Virus record (IMG/VR): IMGVR_UViG_3300042479_000392
Location: 1 to 31,999 of that record
DNA length: 31,999 nt
From: a virus
Reading direction: 5' to 3' (one strand)
Under the pieces are notes generated by a model. It searched no databases and was not told the origin of the DNA. It saw only the letters and a list, made by a program, of their open reading frames with translations. Position 1 is the stretch's first letter; each line of letters starts with the position of its first letter. Made by a program: the position numbers and the translations under genes. Positions 6,990 to 29,823 of the stretch are shown one piece after another.

Positions 6990-9897
6990 TTACGCGAACC
7001 TCCGAATAATCGGATTGTTTTTTGTTTATATCCGTAACCCTTACAATTGGAGAAATGCCCGAAATAGCCGAAATAAGGCGCTCAGTTGAATCATTTGTTG
7101 CCGTTGGGATACTTGCACCGCCGAAATTAATAACGCCCGTTGCGAAGCGATTTCGAGTATTGAGAAATTCTAATAAGCCGGGATAATTACTTTGCGCGAA
7201 ATTAGTTCCATTTGCGGTAATTACCGATTCTCCCCTTGAAAGTCTCGCGGGTATCGAATCGCTCGTTTCGGTTCCGGGTCCGTTTAAATCAATAACACCC
7301 TTTGCAAAGCCCGGAGCCGCTGGGGGTTTCTGTGATCTAATAACATTAATTTGTGCGGCGGTTGTTGCTCCTACAATAATTGCAGCGATAGCACCCGCAA
7401 CGGGTCCAAGTTGAAACGCTTGAATAATACCCTGAGCCGCACCGATTAACGCTTGTCCAATTTGAAACGCCTTTTGTGTTTCGAATTCTTTTTTTGCTAC
7501 TTCGTAACGTTCCGCCGCCGCCTTTCTATTTATTTCACTTATTGCGGCTTTCTTTTGTTCTTCATTTAATTTTGAATTGTTAACGGCTTCGATTTCGGCT
7601 TGTTCGTTTTTATCAATTTCATTTTTTTGTTCTTCGAATCGTAAAGCAACAAGCTCCTGAACTTTTGCTAATCCATCGCTAACGGCTTGAATAGCTTTTT
7701 CCGCTTCTTTGATTCCTTCAGGCGAAAGCCCCAACGCTTCCCCGAATGTAGGTTCGTCGGGTTTTACTTCGCCTAATCCTTTTCGAGCGGCGGCTAAAGC
7801 GTTTTTAATTGTTTCGATTCCTTGAAGTTCGGCTTTTGTAATTACCCCGTCCGCGCCCGCAAACTGTTCTGTTAACGCAAGTTGTTGCTCTAATGCTTTT
7901 ATTTGAATATCTAATTTCGCTTTTTGCTTTTCGGCTTCGGTTTGGGTGCTTAAATCGACCGCATCCTGATCTAACTTTAATTGCGCGTTGATTGCTGCAA
8001 CCTGATTGTTAAAATCTTCGGCGGCGAAACCATCTTTAATTTTTTGAATTTCCGCTTGTTTAATTTTTTCAATTTCGACTTCGGTTGCCCCTTGCTTTTT
8101 TAATGCAGCGGAACGCCCAGCAAATGAATTTTCAAATACCGCTAAACGATTCGTTAAACTATCTTTTTCGATTGCTAATAATTGCGCCTGAACGCTTAAT
8201 TCGTTATCAACCCGCGTTTGTTCTAAATCATCAGCCGCTTTTTTTGCATCAGCATCAAATTTTAATAACGCGGCTTGTTTTTTGGCTTCGATTTCAGCGC
8301 GTAATTTAATTTCCTTTTCTCCATTTCCTTTTAACACGGCGGCTTTATCGTCAAAACTTTTGGCTAACTTTTGGCGTTCGTTTAAATTGAATTCGTTTTC
8401 TAGCGAAGCTAAAGTTTCAGCGTATTTTTTACGTTCTGCAATTGCTTTTTCATTTGCCTTTTTATTTTCTTCGGCGATTTTATTATTTTTTTCGGTTTCT
8501 AATTCGATTTCTTTCGCGGCGGTTTCTGTTTTTGAATCTAAAACTTTGCCCTGTAAATCCTGAATTTCGCGACTTAAAGCGATTTGGTCCTTTGCGCTGG
8601 CTTTTGCCGCTTGAGCAAGTTTTAATTGCGCTTGCAATTGAAGAATTAATTTGTTTGTCGATTCCTCGAAACTTTTCGCTTTCAGTTTTTCGAGTTCAAC
8701 CGTACTTTTTCCAGCCGCCGCAACTAACTTTATTTCCCGATCGTAAGTCGACCCCACAATGGACGAATAACGCTCGTAAGCATCCCGCGCTTGTTCGATT
8801 GCCACCGCTTGTTTTTTGTATTGTTCGGCTGCTAAAGTTGCGGCGCGTGTTTGTTCGCTTGTTACACCGAGAAAATCGGTTACCGCGTTTTTAATATCGT
8901 CAAAATAAATAACTAAAGCCGCAATTCCAGCAATTAATAAAACAATCCCACCCGTTGCGATTGCGTACGCTTTAGCCGAAGTAACCCCGAAAAATTCCGT
9001 TATCCCTGTTAGTACCGTAGTACCAAAAGCCAAAATAGAATTTCCAGCTATTAACGCTTTTTGATTAATTAGCGTGAAAGTGTCAGCAATTGCGCCCTTT
9101 TCTTTTACAATGTTTGCGATTTGTTGCCCGATTGCAAGGGCTTTCGTGCTTTGTGCGAGTGCTTCGGTAACGTTTTTATTATCGCTAAATGCAAGCGTTA
9201 CCAATTGCGAAGCCGAAGCCGCCGCGCCCGCCGTTGCTATTGTATCTTCGAAAGTTCTTTTCGCTGGGTTCTTCGGTTCTTTATTTCCGAATTCATCCAA
9301 CTTACCTTCGAGCTGCCCGATTGATAAACCTAAATTTTCCGCTTCGGTTTTTGCTTCGCTAAATTGTAATGAATTAACATCGGTGCTTTGAATTACTTTT
9401 TGTAGATCGGATAATTTAGCCCGCATCCCTTCCAAAGTATTACCATAATTTCCTACGTTTTGCGTTCCAACGCTTATTCCCGAATTAAATAATAATATTC
9501 CTTGCTTTGCCTGATCGACTTGTTTTTTTGCGTTAAAATACGCCTGAGTAAATTCGGTGGTTCCGTCTGCATTTTGTTGAAGCGTTCCCGTTAAATTTTT
9601 TAACTCGACTTCGGCTAACTGAAAGTTTCTTAATAATTGTTCGTAGCTTCCAGCGTTGGCGTTTACCGCTTGGGCTTGCACTAATAATTGTCTTTCGTTA
9701 TTGGAAATTTCTTTCGTTAATAATTTAATTTCCGTTGCCGTTTTTACATAAGCATCTGTAATTTCCCCTTCGCTTTTTAAAAGTTCTGCATTTGCGGTTT
9801 TTAATCCCGCAACTTGGTTTTTTAATTCAGCCGTTTTTTTAATTACGTCCTCGCTTTTAAATTGGATGTCTAATATTAAAGTTTGCGTTTCTGCCAT
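6976..9897 (-). CDS. Tape measure protein
   Basis: At 973 residues this is the longest gene in the window. The protein is dominated by long Ala/Lys/Glu/Gln-rich coiled-coil segments (about 10-200 and 350-830). A hydrophobic segment at about 312-331 (ATGGIVLLIAGIAALVIYF) and a second hydrophobic, glycine-rich stretch near 855-895 could enter the host membrane during DNA injection. The C-terminal region with PGFAKGVIDLNGPGTETSD and ARLSRGESVI resembles the terminal segment common in tape measures. By the usual rule of about 1.5 angstroms per residue the tail would be roughly 140-150 nm long. Unusually, in transcription order two large baseplate-type genes precede it. Confidence 0.93.
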   Translation of the reverse strand: MAETQTLILDIQFKSEDVIKKTAELKNQVAGLKTANAELLKSEGEITDAYVKTATEIKLLTKEISNNERQLLVQAQAVNANAGSYEQLLRNFQLAEVELKNLTGTLQQNADGTTEFTQAYFNAKKQVDQAKQGILLFNSGISVGTQNVGNYGNTLEGMRAKLSDLQKVIQSTDVNSLQFSEAKTEAENLGLSIGQLEGKLDEFGNKEPKNPAKRTFEDTIATAGAAASASQLVTLAFSDNKNVTEALAQSTKALAIGQQIANIVKEKGAIADTFTLINQKALIAGNSILAFGTTVLTGITEFFGVTSAKAYAIATGGIVLLIAGIAALVIYFDDIKNAVTDFLGVTSEQTRAATLAAEQYKKQAVAIEQARDAYERYSSIVGSTYDREIKLVAAAGKSTVELEKLKAKSFEESTNKLILQLQAQLKLAQAAKASAKDQIALSREIQDLQGKVLDSKTETAAKEIELETEKNNKIAEENKKANEKAIAERKKYAETLASLENEFNLNERQKLAKSFDDKAAVLKGNGEKEIKLRAEIEAKKQAALLKFDADAKKAADDLEQTRVDNELSVQAQLLAIEKDSLTNRLAVFENSFAGRSAALKKQGATEVEIEKIKQAEIQKIKDGFAAEDFNNQVAAINAQLKLDQDAVDLSTQTEAEKQKAKLDIQIKALEQQLALTEQFAGADGVITKAELQGIETIKNALAAARKGLGEVKPDEPTFGEALGLSPEGIKEAEKAIQAVSDGLAKVQELVALRFEEQKNEIDKNEQAEIEAVNNSKLNEEQKKAAISEINRKAAAERYEVAKKEFETQKAFQIGQALIGAAQGIIQAFQLGPVAGAIAAIIVGATTAAQINVIRSQKPPAAPGFAKGVIDLNGPGTETSDSIPARLSRGESVITANGTNFAQSNYPGLLEFLNTRNRFATGVINFGGASIPTATNDSTERLISAISGISPIVRVTDINKKQSDYSEVRVNGTI

Positions 9898-17261: not shown

Positions 17262-18458
17262 TTACATTGTTATCCCGTTACGTTTAATTATTATTTCAGG
17301 TTCTAATTTTTTCATTCGATCTATAATTACTTGGCAATACTTCGGGTCGAGTTCCATACCGAAACATTTTCTTTTTAATTGGTGCGCTGCGACCATTGTT
17401 GTACCGCTTCCCGTAAACGGCTCAAATAAAATCATATTTTCTTTAGTAAATAATTTAATTCCGTTTGAAGGTAATTCAACAGGAAAACACGCTTTGTGAT
17501 TTTCAATTTGTGATTTAGCATTTGAAATTTCCCAAATGTTTTCGTTATAAGAATTTTTTTCCTGATATGAAAAATCTAATTCATCTTTTTGAAATATGAA
17601 AATAAATTCAAAAGCCCTTGATAAACCTTTTGATAATGGAATTGCATTTTTTTTCCAAATAATTGTTTCGCTTAATAATAATCCCGATTCAATAAATCTA
17701 TTTACATTTTTAATAAATGATTGCCTCGAATTATTGTTATACATAATATTCCAGCAAACAATTCCTTTTGATTTTAATATTAAAAAAAAAGTATCTTTTA
17801 TTTCATCTAAAAAATTTAAATATTCATCTTCGGTTTTATTATCTAAATCATTATTTTCATAAAGTTTATTTCCGTTAACGTGAGTATTTCCATTATACGG
17901 CGGGCTTGTAAATATTAAATCTGCTTTTTTACCGTCCATTAATTTAGCAACCGAATCCGAATCCGTAGAATCCCCGCACATTAAACGGTGTTCGCCTATT
18001 TCGAATAAATCGCCCAAAACAATATCTGTTTCAATTCCATTTTCAGGAACTTCGAAATCGTCCTCAACTGCTTCTAAATTATTTATTTCTAATTCGGGCA
18101 AATCTAAACCCCACGTTCCGAGTTCTTCGGAATCCCAATTTTGCGCTAAATCTTGAAAATCCCATTCGCCAAAACCGATATTATCTTTTATAATAAATTC
18201 ACGTTGCTGAGCTTCGGTTAGATCGCTTGCCATTATAACGGGAATTTCTTTTAGTTTGGCTTCCTTGCACGCTTTTAAGCGCATATTTCCGCCAAGAACT
18301 ATATTATCCTCATTAATAACAATCGGGCGTATTTTAAGCATTTCGGGAAATTCTTTTATAGAATTAACCAGCTTTAAAAATTTATCGTCCTTTATTATTC
18401 GGGGGTTGTTTGGGTTCGGTTTAATATCCGAAATTTTATAAAGTTTAGTTTCGATCAT
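17262..18458 (-). CDS. ParB-like nuclease domain fused to DNA methyltransferase
   Basis: Residues 1-110 are a ParB/Sulfiredoxin-like domain with KPNPNNPR at 13-20 and the GGNMRLKA motif at 56-63 (GGHRR-like). Residues about 145-390 are a beta-class DNA methyltransferase. The catalytic motif TSPPYN is at 184-189, and the SAM-binding motif FEPFTGSGTT follows at 345-354. The order IV before I is typical of beta-class enzymes, and TSPPY is compatible with N4-cytosine or N6-adenine methylation. There is no partner restriction enzyme, so it probably protects phage DNA from host restriction. Phages often carry this fusion. It is the first gene after the terminator at 18474-18503, so it may belong to the late transcript. 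A possible -7 box lies 4 bases before its ATG. Confidence 0.93.
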   Translation of the reverse strand: MIETKLYKISDIKPNPNNPRIIKDDKFLKLVNSIKEFPEMLKIRPIVINEDNIVLGGNMRLKACKEAKLKEIPVIMASDLTEAQQREFIIKDNIGFGEWDFQDLAQNWDSEELGTWGLDLPELEINNLEAVEDDFEVPENGIETDIVLGDLFEIGEHRLMCGDSTDSDSVAKLMDGKKADLIFTSPPYNGNTHVNGNKLYENNDLDNKTEDEYLNFLDEIKDTFFLILKSKGIVCWNIMYNNNSRQSFIKNVNRFIESGLLLSETIIWKKNAIPLSKGLSRAFEFIFIFQKDELDFSYQEKNSYNENIWEISNAKSQIENHKACFPVELPSNGIKLFTKENMILFEPFTGSGTTMVAAHQLKRKCFGMELDPKYCQVIIDRMKKLEPEIIIKRNGITM

Positions 18459-19628: not shown

Positions 19629-21026
19629 TTAAAATGGTAATTCTCGATTGACTTCGTAAAATGATTTATTCGGTTGCAAATTACTTTTAATTTCTTGAAA
19701 TTGGTTTGGGCTTTCATTCATTCCGTGAAAACTGCTCATTGTAGAATTGTGCCGAAAACCTACGGAACCCGTAGCTCCTTGCCTATGTTTTTCAAATAGT
19801 AAAAATATTTCGTTCGTATAAGGCGCGCCCGTGTCCTCGTTTTTTAGATCGTAATATTCAGGTCTCCAAATAAACGCGACCGTGTCCGCGTCCTGTTCAA
19901 TGGATCCTGATTCGCGTAAATGAGATAAGGACGGTTTTTTGTCGGTTGTTTCTTCGCATTTTCTGTTTAACTGAGCCAAAACAATAAACGGAATGTTTAA
20001 TTCCTTTTGCGCGGCTTTCAATGTGCGGGATATTTGCGAAACTTCCGCTTCTCTGTTACCACCTTTAAAGCCCTCTAATGTCATCAATTGCAAATAGTCG
20101 ATAATTACCCATTGACACTCATTTAAACGCGCGTGCCGCTTTATTATTCGAATTGCTTCGTTTACACCGCATCCAGCTTTGTCGTAAATTTTAAAAGGTT
20201 TGTTTTCAACTATTCCGATTGTCTTTTCAAAATATGTTAATTCATCAGGGTTTAGGGTTCCGTCGCGAAGTGCCGAAGATCGGATTCGTTCGTTTGAGTT
20301 TTGGAGAATTAAACGCTGGGTTAATTGGGATTGCGACATTTCGAGATTAAAATATATTCCGGGCTTTCCTGTTTGCATTCCGAAAAATAAAGCTAAAGCG
20401 GTTTTTCCCATACTTGGACGCGCCCCGATTATAATTAATTCGTTTTGCCAGCCGCCTGTAAATTTGTTTACTGATTCAATCCCCGTTTCTAAGCCGCTTG
20501 TTTGCCCTGACTTCGCTAATTCAGCGCGCCTATAATATGCTTCCCGTTCGTTTGTGGTTAGTTCAGGCATTTCAACTATCTTTTGAAGTTCGGAACCTTC
20601 TTCGGTTAGTTTGGTTAAGCGTTTAATCATTTCTTCGGCTATATCTCGACCGGGTTTCTTTTCGTGCAAACCTATTCCGACCTCGTAATAGATTTTCGTA
20701 ATATTTCGCGTTATTAAGGCGTTATGCAGCGTTTCAATTAGTTCGGGTATATTCTCGTTATAAGTAACGTTTTGACTTGTTTTAAGAGCTTCGGCGTATT
20801 CATCCATCGAAAAGGATTCCGAACTTTTCCACGCGTTCAAAAGTGAAACGGGATCGGGGCGTTTTCCTTCGTCGTTTATTTTTTTTATGAAATGGAATGT
20901 TTTTTTGCAAAGTTCGTTTTCAAAATGGTGCGGTCCGATTTGCGAAATAATTTCTTTGTAAATTTCATTTGGGCTTAAAAGGATTCCGATTAAGGTTTTT
21001 TCGATTTGATCGTTTGGGTTATTCAT
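19629..21026 (-). CDS. dnaB: Replicative DNA helicase, DnaB family
   Basis: This 465-residue hexameric helicase unwinds the template at the replication fork. The N-terminal domain (1-115) is the DnaB-N fold that contacts primase or loader. The RecA-like core has Walker A GARPSMGKT at 201-209, a catalytic region around FNLEMSQSQLTQRL (226-239), and Walker B VIIDYLQL at 307-314. These are followed by AQLNRKCEET and SHLRESGSIEQDAD, the arginine-finger region of the family. It starts 8 bases inside the end of the replication initiator gene, typical of an initiator-helicase pair. Length matches bacterial DnaB. No DNA polymerase or primase gene is visible in the window, so the phage probably relies on host enzymes for those. 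Confidence 0.95.
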   Translation of the reverse strand: MNNPNDQIEKTLIGILLSPNEIYKEIISQIGPHHFENELCKKTFHFIKKINDEGKRPDPVSLLNAWKSSESFSMDEYAEALKTSQNVTYNENIPELIETLHNALITRNITKIYYEVGIGLHEKKPGRDIAEEMIKRLTKLTEEGSELQKIVEMPELTTNEREAYYRRAELAKSGQTSGLETGIESVNKFTGGWQNELIIIGARPSMGKTALALFFGMQTGKPGIYFNLEMSQSQLTQRLILQNSNERIRSSALRDGTLNPDELTYFEKTIGIVENKPFKIYDKAGCGVNEAIRIIKRHARLNECQWVIIDYLQLMTLEGFKGGNREAEVSQISRTLKAAQKELNIPFIVLAQLNRKCEETTDKKPSLSHLRESGSIEQDADTVAFIWRPEYYDLKNEDTGAPYTNEIFLLFEKHRQGATGSVGFRHNSTMSSFHGMNESPNQFQEIKSNLQPNKSFYEVNRELPF

Positions 21027-21750
21027 AATAGATTTTAGATTTTGAAGGGGATTTTATTTCGTATTTGCCAGCGTTTTGAGTGTTTCCAATCCATTGTTGC
21101 AATTTATTTTGGATTCCAAAATTCCTTTGATGGTTTAATTCTATTCCGCCGTCTTTGTGCGGGGTTGAATAATAGTTAATGAAGTCTTTGTAAAGAATTT
21201 CAGGATAACCGCTATTCGGGTGTTCTTCCTTAAATTTATTTATTCGCTCTGTAAATTCTTCGGGGCTTGCTTTCACGAACCAATTATGCAAACCTAAATT
21301 AGAACTTTTTGAAACTTGATTTTCATTTTCTGCAAAAAAGTCTTTATTGTTTATATTGTCTATATCCTCTTTAATAGTCTTATGATTATGGGCGTTGCTT
21401 TCGCTTTGCTTTTTCTTTGCTTCGGGCTTGCTTTGGTTTTGCTTTGGACTTGCTTCGGTAAATTTTACCAACCCAAAAATATTACATTGATATTGATTTT
21501 TGCTTTGAACAACTATTTTAATTAAGCCGTTTTCAACTAATACATCGAGATTCTTTTTATAAGTTTTATAATTAGAAACACCGACCGCGCTAATTATCTG
21601 AGTTGAACTAAGCCCGAAGGATTCCTTCCAGCGTAATTCATTTGCAACGTTCAAAATATAAAAATAGATTGCCGTTGCCGTTGGGTTATTTTTCTCAGGA
21701 TTATTTAAAGCCCAATTCCAAAAGCCGTTAAAATACTCAAACATAACCAA
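21019..21750 (-). CDS. Replication initiator / helicase loader-like protein
   Basis: The 243-residue protein begins with a winged-helix domain (about 5-90): the segments NPTATAIYFYILNVANEL, LSSTQIISAVGVSNYKTYKK and LDVLVENGLIKIV match phage replisome organisers of the DnaD/rep-org N-terminal type. A low-complexity linker rich in Gln, Lys and Ser follows (about 95-140), then a helical C-terminus with a charged end. It precedes the DnaB helicase and overlaps it by 8 bases, the classic initiator-loader order. An alternative start at the third residue (21744) is possible; the upstream gene ends at 21737. The role in origin recognition is inferred. Confidence 0.75.
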   Translation of the reverse strand: MVMFEYFNGFWNWALNNPEKNNPTATAIYFYILNVANELRWKESFGLSSTQIISAVGVSNYKTYKKNLDVLVENGLIKIVVQSKNQYQCNIFGLVKFTEASPKQNQSKPEAKKKQSESNAHNHKTIKEDIDNINNKDFFAENENQVSKSSNLGLHNWFVKASPEEFTERINKFKEEHPNSGYPEILYKDFINYYSTPHKDGGIELNHQRNFGIQNKLQQWIGNTQNAGKYEIKSPSKSKIYYE

Positions 21751-21940
21751 CGCAATCTAAAATAATAACATCTAAATCGAAAGCACAATCATAAATAAAA
21801 GACTCCATTAAATCGATTTTCATCTTGTCGTTATTATCGGGAAATTCTTTATTCAAGCGATTTAATCTTTCTCTGATATAATCTCTTTTAATAATTACAA
21901 TCAATTGTTCTTTAGTAAGTTCTTCGAGTTTATAAGCCAT
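21737..21940 (-). CDS. 67-residue protein, paralogue of 22077-22280
   Basis: I start this gene at 21940 (MAYKLEELTKEQLIVIIKR), not at the earlier ATG at 22021, because from here it aligns with the protein of 22077-22280, also 67 residues: KLEELTKEQLIVII against KLEELKKHQLIEIV at the start, and DVIILDCVGY against KNILDYFGY at the end. The earlier ATG would place coding sequence over the structured RNA. It is soluble, helical and acidic, with no known domain. It ends overlapping the replication initiator gene by 14 bases. Its function is unknown; the paired arrangement suggests a duplication. Confidence 0.7.
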   Translation of the reverse strand: MAYKLEELTKEQLIVIIKRDYIRERLNRLNKEFPDNNDKMKIDLMESFIYDCAFDLDVIILDCVGYV

Positions 21941-21944
21941 TTTT

Positions 21945-22060
21945 TTAAAATTAAAAAGCCCGTTAAAAGCTGCGGTAGTAGCGAAACAGTTTTCCCGTTT
22001 CTCGCAGCCCTCAACGGGCAAAATGTTTTTAGATCATTCGAGCTACTACCTCCGAACGTT
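21945..22060 (-). ncRNA. Candidate structured leader / small RNA with pseudoknot
   Basis: This untranslated segment (minus strand, about 116 bases) lies between tandem paralogues and after a promoter. Four perfect helices are visible in plus-strand positions. Helix b is 22019-22013 with 21964-21958 (GCCCGTT/AACGGGC). Helix c is 22008-22003 with 21974-21969 (GCTGCG/CGCAGC). Helix d is 22001-21997 with 21987-21983 (GAAAC/GTTTC). Helix a is 22050-22042 with 21982-21974 (GGTAGTAGC/GCTACTACC). Helix a pairs upstream sequence with bases inside helix b, giving an interleaved pseudoknot a-b-a'-b'. The 3' end is GGGC followed by TTTTTAATTTT, a terminator-like tail just before the next ATG (21940). It could be an attenuator, a riboswitch-like leader or an independent RNA. 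Confidence 0.65.
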
Positions 22061-22063
22061 TTA

Positions 22064-22096
22064 CAAATATACTTTTTTATTTATTCGGATAACCAA
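22064..22096 (-). promoter_or_regulatory. Bacteroidota-type promoter before the structured RNA
   Basis: Minus-strand TATATTTG (22071-22064) is a full TAnnTTTG -7 box. A TTG (22096-22094) lies 22 bases upstream, within the 17-23 base spacing known for Flavobacteriia. It starts right after the stop of the paralogue at 22077, so the -33 element overlaps that gene. It would start transcription at about 22058, in front of the structured RNA. Confidence 0.6.
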
Positions 22097-22280
22097 AATA
22101 ATCTAAAATATTTTTATCGATTTCTAAAGCCGTTTCCAAAATCATTTCTTCGAGCTGGTCAATTCTTGAATGTTCATCGACTGAAACGTTTTCAATATGT
22201 TTTAATTTTTTTTCAATCCAAAGCGATTTAACTATTTCGATTAATTGGTGTTTTTTTAATTCTTCAAGTTTTAGTTTCAT
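22077..22280 (-). CDS. 67-residue protein, paralogue of 21737-21940
   Basis: This protein begins MKLKLEELKKHQLIEIVKSL and ends DKNILDYFGYPNK. It is a clear paralogue of the protein of 21737-21940, with the same length and matching start and end motifs. It is helical and acidic with no known domain and no membrane segment. Its 3' end carries the -33 box of the promoter for the structured RNA. The gene follows 22285-22515 with a 4-base gap. The function is not known. Confidence 0.65.
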   Translation of the reverse strand: MKLKLEELKKHQLIEIVKSLWIEKKLKHIENVSVDEHSRIDQLEEMILETALEIDKNILDYFGYPNK

Positions 22281-26588: not shown

Positions 26589-26990
26589 TTAGTTTGTTTT
26601 AGTTTTGAATTCGTAAATCGGTTTATCTGTTTTGGTTTGGGTTGCTTTTTTTTGCTTGCCGTTGTAAATTCGTTTATCAACCAGCGTATCAATTTTGTCT
26701 AATAGTTCGTTATTTAAACGCTGGTATTTTGATAAAATCGTTTTCAAGTAATCCACGTTTATAAATTGGTTTTCCATCTGTGAACGTAGATCGGAAATTG
26801 TTTCGGCTTGCTCGCTAATTACAAAATTTAAATGCGCCCGGTGTTTTTTTAGTTCGGCGTTTTCTAAAAATAAATTGCTTTCCATTTTTTGAAGTTTTGA
26901 ATTTTTGTTTTTTAAATAGGTGTTTTGAATTGATTGAACTGAAATCGCAATTGCAGCCCCTGAATAGATTATAATGTTTAGCGCGTCCAT
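26589..26990 (-). CDS. Membrane-anchored coiled-coil protein
   Basis: The 133-residue protein has a hydrophobic N-terminal segment (residues about 4-22, LNIIIYSGAAIAISVQSI), then about 80 residues of predicted coiled coil (LQKMESNLFLENAELKKHRA and beyond), and a basic tail (YNGKQKKATQTKTDK). It starts in a 1-base overlap (TAATG) with the XRE gene stop. It looks like a membrane-linked coiled-coil protein with its tail in the cytoplasm. Role unknown; possibly links phage DNA or proteins to the membrane. No family was recognised. Confidence 0.55.
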   Translation of the reverse strand: MDALNIIIYSGAAIAISVQSIQNTYLKNKNSKLQKMESNLFLENAELKKHRAHLNFVISEQAETISDLRSQMENQFINVDYLKTILSKYQRLNNELLDKIDTLVDKRIYNGKQKKATQTKTDKPIYEFKTKTN

Positions 26991-27190
26991 TACTTCGATT
27001 TTTTAGTTTTTAGTTTGTTTAAAGCGTTAATAATTATTTCGGCGTAATCATTTGAACAGTTACGAAACCCGCTTTCAATGTGGGAAATATATTTTCCGTT
27101 TTGTAAACCGATTGCTTTTCCTATTTGGTCCTGTGTAACGTCCAATTCGCGCCGAAGTTTTCTGATTTTCATTCCGTTTTCTGTTTTCAT
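26990..27190 (-). CDS. XRE-family HTH transcription regulator
   Basis: This 66-residue protein is a single HTH_XRE (Cro/CI-like) domain. Residues about 9-60 contain KLRRELDVTQDQIGKAIGL with the first HTH helices and KYISHIESGFRNCSNDYAEI with the family's S-x-x-E-x-G turn. It has no dimerisation or effector domain, like phage Cro-type proteins. It is translationally coupled to the upstream gene by an ATGA overlap. It lies inside the operon driven by P1, whose -7 box overlaps a palindromic operator shared with P2. It is the best candidate in the window for binding those operators, which would give self-repression and timing. That link is inference. Confidence 0.85.
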   Translation of the reverse strand: MKTENGMKIRKLRRELDVTQDQIGKAIGLQNGKYISHIESGFRNCSNDYAEIIINALNKLKTKKSK

Positions 27191-29253: not shown

Positions 29254-29823
29254 TTAAATTTGCCGCGTGGCTTTTTTAACTAAGTTATGAATTGATTTAT
29301 CGAGCTGTTCAACTGATAGGTTGACCATTTCGAGCAATTTAACATTTTCTTCGTCAGTTTGTGAATAATCCGTTTCAATTAACATTTTAACAAGCCCCGC
29401 AATGCTGGTTAACGGTTGCCGTAATTCGTGCGAAAGCATAAAGCGGAAATCCTCCAAAAGTTGTTTTTGTTTTTCGTATTCGTGGGATGTTATCGAAGTA
29501 ACATCGGTGATGGGTAAACCTACAAAATGCAAGGAATTTAAAATGAAATAAATATTCCACAGGTTCCAGCGCATTGACCCGTTTTTTTGTTTCGTTTTCG
29601 CATAAAATCGAATCGGTAAAGGTGCGCGGTCCTTTGCTCTTTTAACGGATTCTGAAAACTCGCTAAAATCGGAATCGTCCGAAATCATTTCGGAAACGTT
29701 TTTAGGTTTTATGTGGCTCGAATATTCTTTGAATAAATCGTTACTTCCAATAATAACCCCGTTTTCGTCGGTTACTACGTAAAATAAATCGATTGAATTA
29801 GTTAGAATATATCTCGCGCTCAT
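29254..29823 (-). CDS. PAS-HisKA protein lacking the kinase ATPase domain
   Basis: The 189-residue protein reads as a sensor fragment of a histidine kinase. Residues about 5-115 are PAS-like: LFYVVTDENGVIIGSNDLF at 13-31 and GSMRWNLWNIYF near 82. Residues about 125-185 are a HisKA dimerisation domain with H-box SHELRQPLTSIAGL, phospho-acceptor H132, and a second helix NVKLLEMVNLSVEQLDKSI. The HATPase_c catalytic domain is missing; the frame ends at 29254 and no N, G1, F or G2 box follows in the next gene. It could receive phosphate from a host kinase, dimerise with one, or act as a decoy. It lies among lysis genes. A -7-like box is at 29884-29891. Confidence 0.85.
   Translation of the reverse strand: MSARYILTNSIDLFYVVTDENGVIIGSNDLFKEYSSHIKPKNVSEMISDDSDFSEFSESVKRAKDRAPLPIRFYAKTKQKNGSMRWNLWNIYFILNSLHFVGLPITDVTSITSHEYEKQKQLLEDFRFMLSHELRQPLTSIAGLVKMLIETDYSQTDEENVKLLEMVNLSVEQLDKSIHNLVKKATRQI

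Follow-up and report, generated by a model that had tools for sequence, protein, structure and literature searches.

Plasmid incompatibility is a working model of self-specific control by RNA (PMC5703833), and in plasmid control UNR motifs in the loops are known to speed the kissing of antisense RNAs (PMC4485353). A comparable arrangement in the phage world is the CI RNA of P4, an untranslated leader of a replication operon in which RNA-RNA pairing leads to premature termination (as summarised in PMC4825925). Here we describe an RNA of about 105 bases from Bacteroidetes phages that was previously uncatalogued, in which a loop and its exact complement are carried by the same transcript and switch together as an 8-9 base tag. 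There is a real chance that this tagged RNA may be a new kind of system, beyond the RNA-RNA replication control known so far. It was found in a 31,999-nucleotide stretch of viral DNA (IMG/VR record IMGVR_UViG_3300042479_000392, positions 1 to 31,999), hereafter the window.

Results

The original prediction placed on the minus strand of the window a pseudoknotted RNA of four helices, with a TAnnTTTG promoter before it and a U tract and an ATG after it. Read from the sequence, all of these lie where they had been placed: helix a pairs GGTAGTAGC (22050-22042) with GCTACTACC (21982-21974) over 9 bp, helix b pairs GCCCGTT (22019-22013) with AACGGGC (21964-21958) over 7 bp, the inner helices pair CTGC (22007-22004) with GCAG (21973-21970) and GAAAC (22001-21997) with GTTTC (21987-21983), and the next ATG is at 21940. 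A further helix, P1, which that prediction missed, pairs CGTTCGG (22058-22052) with TCGAATG (22041-22035) on the same strand; because P1 makes arm a a hairpin loop, the pseudoknot would be a loop-to-internal-loop (kissing-type) pairing. The features are as follows, in the direction of transcription.

22077..22280, minus strand: upstream 67-aa paralogue, its stop codon just before the promoter
22064..22071, minus strand: -7 promoter element TATATTTG, Bacteroidetes-type, by direct reading
21953..22059, minus strand: predicted RNA of about 105 nt, from just before P1 to the end of the U tract, both ends inferred from promoter spacing and terminator
22052..22058, minus strand: P1 5' strand CGTTCGG, two-sided changes in 6/7 pairs, 95.3% paired
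22042..22051, minus strand: P1 loop A-GGTAGTAGC, of which 22050-22042 is the displayed tag (arm a), with a loop consensus in 93 members
22035..22041, minus strand: P1 3' strand TCGAATG, from the covariation analysis
22020..22034, minus strand: A-rich linker ATCTAAAAACATTTT, several A columns invariant or near-invariant
22013..22019, minus strand: P2 5' strand GCCCGTT (helix b), base of the terminator-like stem, two-sided changes in 6/7 pairs, 98.8% paired
22004..22007, minus strand: P3 5' strand CTGC, 100% paired and mostly invariant, the invariance partly set by the search pattern
22002..22003, minus strand: conserved GA facing the tag partner, 0 changes on the tree, partly set by the search pattern
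21997..22001, minus strand: P4 5' strand GAAAC, covariation in the first three pairs (tag side), the other two not general
21983..21987, minus strand: P4 3' strand GTTTC, from the covariation analysis
21974..21982, minus strand: tag partner GCTACTACC (arm a'), 96.6% paired, massive two-sided change in 4 columns, 0 G-U
21970..21973, minus strand: P3 3' strand GCAG, from the covariation analysis
21958..21964, minus strand: P2 3' strand AACGGGC, from the covariation analysis
21953..21957, minus strand: U tract of the predicted terminator, also present in BLAST-found homologues, whose discovery did not need it
21737..21940, minus strand: downstream 67-aa gene, paralogue of the upstream one
21019..21738, minus strand: DnaD-like/O-like replication gene, 239 aa (PHROG 186, E 3e-7; PHROG 18020, E 4e-5)
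19629..21026, minus strand: DnaB-type replicative helicase (Pfam DnaB_C, E 2e-72)

With the pseudoknot left out, the window RNA has a minimum free energy of -43.7 kcal/mol against -26.5 +/- 3.1 for shuffled sequences (z -5.55). A descriptor made of promoter, hairpin and loop complement within the terminator stem scores 44.5 at this site, while dinucleotide shuffling of the entire window, repeated 100 times, yielded 20 matches with a maximum of 37.0 and none at 40 or above. The evidence for the fold from comparison of homologues is, however, far stronger than that from shuffling the window. The U tract adjoins the terminator-like stem directly, as in intrinsic terminators, and the predicted terminator lies just ahead of the start of a replication gene, as in attenuators of the pT181 type.

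We obtained 17 alignable loci from related phage contigs by searching with the neighbouring replication proteins and with the RNA; in these loci the conserved block runs from the promoter to the U tract and the flanking genes differ. Both strands of helices a, b and P1 change together among the homologues (GGTAGTAGC/GCTACTACC, GGTCGAAGC/GCTTCGACC, GTGAGACC/GGTCTCAC), so that the covariation which the original prediction proposed to look for is present in its helices a and b and in P1 as well. A degenerate pattern search yielded at least 120 stretches, representing 94 distinct sequences (alignment A1); one of them, L046, is misaligned in A1 and was left out of the tag counts, which cover 93 sequences. 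In the collection pattern TGCGAG, part of the 3' arm (T and ACC), GCA and the U tract were prescribed, and the invariance of these elements is not independent evidence because the pattern itself set it; no constraint was placed on the promoter, on P1, on the 5' arm, on the 5' strand of P2 or on the four variable tag positions. The features of the pattern-collected set recur in the 17 homology-found loci. In the 94-row alignment the promoter TA is invariant and TTTG is kept in about 90%, the element being absent from the search pattern.

P1, the pseudoknot and the terminator-like stem are all retained, with massive compensatory change, among 93 distinct homologues in phage contigs. Pairing in A1, pseudoknot included, holds in 93.3% of 3008 cells against 78.7% after shuffling, cells changed on both sides number 402 against 114, and none of 500 shuffles reached the real values; the covariation score is 0.426 against 0.143, again unmatched in 500 shuffles. 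Sliding the partner by 1-3 columns leaves at most 42% paired. P4 is supported solely in the three pairs beside the tag. Judged by these comparisons, family A is a real conserved structured RNA family. It has at most one strong copy per contig in 31 phage contigs; a weak plus-strand model match in the window (31.6 bits) overlaps the RNA and was taken as its mirror image. A diverged member, L046 (1900-2029, minus strand), has a TATAAT-like element in place of TAnnTTTG, which suggests a host outside Bacteroidetes.

G-U cells exceed A-C cells in P1 (67:4), P2 (37:0) and P4 (18:2), 122 against 6 in total, which identifies the minus strand of the window as the transcript strand. The same asymmetry, being the mark of a transcript, led us to reject a role as an origin or primosome assembly site folded in single-stranded DNA, an explanation suggested by the adjacent replication genes; a promoter element conserved at a fixed distance likewise speaks against it, and we find it scarcely credible.

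The pseudoknot is the most variable element of the fold. Eighteen eight-base tag words occur among the 93 sequences, all of the form G-U-X-Y-Z-A-W-C with XYZ limited to nine triplets (CGA, AGT, GGA, CAG, GAG, AGA, AGG, CGT, GAA). On a backbone tree built without the tag columns the word changes 45 times, with 28, 15, 24 and 23 changes at the pairs X, Y, Z and W, whereas P2 pairs change 6.4 times and unpaired columns 8.1 times on average, although some P1 and P4 columns are nearly as fast (up to 23 changes). Every tag change is complete on both sides, and G-U pairs occur in 0 of 837 tag cells. Different tags are found on RNAs with just 1-3 backbone differences, such as L056 (GTCGAAGC) and L064 (GTAGTAGC), or the nearly identical pair L051 and L127, and window-like phages with 94-98% identity in DnaB show six different tags. 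Recombination alone was rejected as the cause of switching, since both arms change together across about 60 intervening bases that do not. In this pattern of change the pseudoknot behaves like a hypervariable tag, and its frequent switching with perfect self-complementarity would be expected of a self-recognition label and not of ordinary drift.

Outside the RNA, the contigs show no enrichment of the tag or of its complement (3 and 3 occurrences, against 5.2 and 5.7 for the average other word), so the partner is the RNA, either in cis or through a second copy. By eye, no tie was seen between tag and type of downstream gene. The displaying loop is standard: in the 93 members the 10-nt P1 loop follows A-N-G-U-N-R-N-A-N-C, where U and R of U-N-R are kept in 93/93 (R being G in 71 and A in 22) and the base before U is G in 93/93, in place of the pyrimidine of a strict YUNR.

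The original prediction also offered a riboswitch, which these data do not support. A pseudoknot with invariant-looking unpaired bases (TGCGAG, the A-rich linker) might suggest a metabolite riboswitch or a ribozyme, but TGCGAG/ACCGCA owe much of their invariance to the search pattern, variation is centred on the pseudoknot, and inspection of the alignment showed no alternative pairing that could serve as an expression platform, such as a mutually exclusive antiterminator. In the pistol ribozyme a 5' hairpin loop also pairs with a strand inside a second helix; that strand lies 5' of the inner hairpin in pistol and 3' of it, on the other side, in the tagged RNA, which moreover ends in a terminator and has no Rfam match. 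We regard this explanation as very improbable.

The 67-aa proteins flanking the RNA in the window are paralogous (39% identity, E = 2e-12). Its predicted position between two tandem paralogues is a peculiarity of some phages: the flanking genes vary freely, and in other phages the slot of the downstream gene is taken by DUF6291, HNH, methyltransferase or helicase genes. Across family A contigs a start codon follows about 0-20 nt after the U tract, and the first genes are DnaD/O-like loaders, DUF6291, HNH nucleases, methyltransferases, helicases or small 67-aa-like proteins. Since these first genes vary, the RNA is the fixed head piece of a replication module whose first gene is freely exchanged. 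The comparison of homologues, with DnaD-like/O-like loaders, DUF6291 and DnaB downstream, bears out the original view of a pseudoknotted RNA with its own promoter ahead of replication genes. In the contigs L008, L011, L013, L016 and L025, compared with the window, the RNA allele and the first downstream gene are swapped while DnaB remains 94-98% identical; the exchange is a local hotspot among window-like phages.

Elsewhere in the window, all on the minus strand, lie a small HTH (XRE-like) repressor-type protein (26990-27190; PHROG transcriptional regulators), a 189-aa ORF that by eye looks like a PAS and histidine-kinase dimerisation domain (29254-29823), odd for a 32-kb phage, and an ORF that by eye resembles a ParB-like N-terminus fused to a DNA methyltransferase (17262-18458). 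No integrase was noticed in the window ORF list.

A search of viral contigs for GCTTCGAC..GTCGAAGC..TTTTTT found 29 stretches, compared with 2 for a control word. Most of the 29 form a second family, B, in which the arms are exchanged: the P1 loop carries the complement and an apical hairpin of the terminator displays the tag. The 10-nt display loop has the same constant A-N-G-U-N-R-N-A-N-C as the P1 loop of family A, and the stem of the displaying hairpin covaries (GCG/CGC, TCG/CGA, ACA/TGT, AGT/ACT, GAG/CTC, TTG/CAA, TAG/CTA). A search pattern free of the tag brought in members that carry GTGAGAGC, GTGAGAAC or GTGGAAGC, each self-complementary, on an unchanged scaffold, and the helices of family B exceed shuffled controls in compensatory changes; tag frequencies in family B are meaningless because most members were found through one tag. 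By eye assignment, family B likewise lies ahead of DUF6291-like and helicase genes.

Because B displays the exact complement of A tags, the two families could bind each other, and the tags could be the outcome of an arms race with antagonist RNAs of competing phages or satellites. The occurrence of A and B in apparently Bacteroidetes phages, the words common to both with exchanged arms (GTCGAAGC/GCTTCGAC) and the rapid two-sided switching would fit such a contest. Family B is, however, also placed ahead of replication genes and built as a cis-regulator of its own, and common words may equally follow from a common loop grammar, so that we consider an arms race improbable.

Weak covariance-model matches in isolated Bacteroidetes phages are different in sequence and share one plan: TAnnTTTG, hairpin, A-rich linker, terminator stem with the exact loop complement, U tract and ATG. 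A descriptor scan of 814 kb gave 12 matches against 2.3 per shuffled set. Flavobacterium phage snusmum6-1 (NC_048841) has three tagged RNAs, at 9722, 13659 and 14697, with the tags GTCGAAGC, GTCGTCG and GTGGAACG; hattifnatt9-1 also has three, the last compensatorily changed to GTGAGACG/CGTCTCAC, and 11b, phi10:1 and FCL-2 have one each. At its sensitivity, and with some genomes partly covered, the scan was negative for lambda, phi14:2, phi38:1, B124-14, RAP44, 6H, P2559S, P12024L and phi18:1. In L224 (MN812207) the tagged RNAs are at 9372, 13309 and 14346; this genome, snusmum6-1 (L184) and L252 each have three, all with different tags, preceding different early genes (helicase, HNH endonuclease, and the gene before helicase-primase). 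One candidate, L182 (G011:34306-34383), was dropped, its hairpins being present without the loop complement; this promoter-hairpin-terminator cassette is perhaps a simpler relative of the tagged class.

At the curated gathering threshold, Rfam has no family for RNA A, RNA B or the snusmum6-1 genome; in the Infernal/Rfam comparison named with the original prediction, the sub-threshold list is noise of miRNA, snoRNA and sRNA models. When the RNA region was compared by BLASTN with 50,697 phage records, only chance matches came back, and a pattern scan of 84,980 GTDB genomes gave 15 matches where by our own estimate about 14 are expected by chance, the other helices being, by eye, in none of the 15. 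A covariance-model scan of 296 Bacteroidota genomes gave 0 matches, a weak negative owing to stricter filters and no positive control. We found no published description of the tagged RNA; closed-access or unpublished work may hold one, and unlabelled entries in large microbiome motif lists (e.g., PMC8040213) may include it.

Discussion

The original prediction of a pseudoknotted RNA stands, and its attenuator or small phage RNA may hold; besides P1, the tag with its hypervariability, family B and the broad distribution had escaped it. Comparison among relatives shows the conserved promoter element, the RNA structure, the terminator-like end, the location and the self-complementary, diversifying tag. 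Our preferred reading, held at a little short of even confidence, is that the RNA is both leader and small RNA of a phage replication operon, a self-terminating attenuator whose tag serves phage-private RNA-RNA recognition. Transcription would start at P1, the tag loop would kiss its partner while the terminator stem is completed, and the polymerase would mostly halt in the U tract, with the first replication gene starting 0-20 nt further on, which would give an abundant small RNA and limited read-through. Less certainly, finished copies could present these tag arms in trans to copies still being transcribed, in which case the RNA would report the number of phage genomes and restrain replication genes that share its tag. 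Escape from cross-control by other phages might then be selected for, which would diversify the tags and keep them self-complementary; diversification with strict complementarity is expected if pairing must be specific to the own RNA. The several differently tagged RNAs of one isolate genome, and the arm-exchanged family with the same loop grammar and switching tags, are in line with this mechanism. No simple either/or attenuator is evident, because the pseudoknot and the terminator stem are mutually compatible. Mumin phages are reported to be capable of lytic replication only (PMC7077304), so lysogenic immunity is not the reason in those with three RNAs. The diversity of tags could also stem from something else, for instance competitor RNAs or host factors.

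A serious rival, if an unlikely one, is a free-standing small RNA acting outside the operon on a host RNA, a host protein or a defence system, where the tag pseudoknot merely compacts the fold and the terminator just ends the RNA. Its own promoter and terminator, the compact fold without an alternative, and downstream genes that are non-homologous between phages, so that no fixed cis target is required, all suit such an RNA. Yet both families precede replication or nucleic-acid genes, and a helix with a purely structural role would have no need of 45 tag switches free of G-U. The most far-reaching reading would be a phage-borne system of RNA self-recognition, in which one or more RNAs per phage, each with a private tag in a standard loop, recognise own copies but not those of rivals and so control entry into replication during co-infection, with two structurally different families sharing an arm-exchanged code; this we hold possible but rather doubtful.

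Were the tag to act between molecules, RNA incompatibility groups of the plasmid kind would exist among virulent phages, together with a rule readable from sequence for which phages co-replicate in one cell. Even if it acts only intramolecularly, Bacteroidetes phages, laboratory-cultivable ones included, carry here an abundant and so far uncatalogued class of RNA. The 18 interchangeable 8-base pairings on near-constant scaffolds form a natural set useful for studies of co-transcriptional kissing, termination and RNA orthogonality.

Among known systems, the pT181 and pIP501 attenuators share with the tagged RNA a replication leader whose terminator immediately precedes the start codon, as well as kissing hairpin loops and self/non-self groups (PMC5703833). 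They are plasmid systems and use a separate antisense RNA from the opposite strand and a pre-emptor hairpin, whereas the phage RNA holds both arms in one transcript, inspection of its alignment revealed no pre-emptor, and no antisense unit on the opposite strand was noticed. As with the CI RNA of satellite phage P4, an untranslated RNA heads a replication operon, with a terminator (here predicted) before the replication genes; but CI RNA is processed from a leader, pairs with two sites and confers immunity, while the tagged RNA is one promoter-terminator unit with one self-complementary tag and occurs in lytic mumin phages. U-N-R within the recognition loop (93/93 members) recalls the YUNR U-turn loops of the CopA and hok-sok type, which differ in having a pyrimidine where the tagged loop has G; here, too, the pairing is intramolecular and engages 8-9 of the 10 loop bases. 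The prohead RNA of phi29 has variable loops that are kept complementary between relatives. Its pairing is intermolecular and its role is in packaging, whereas the tagged RNA adjoins replication genes, in phages that have an ordinary terminase.
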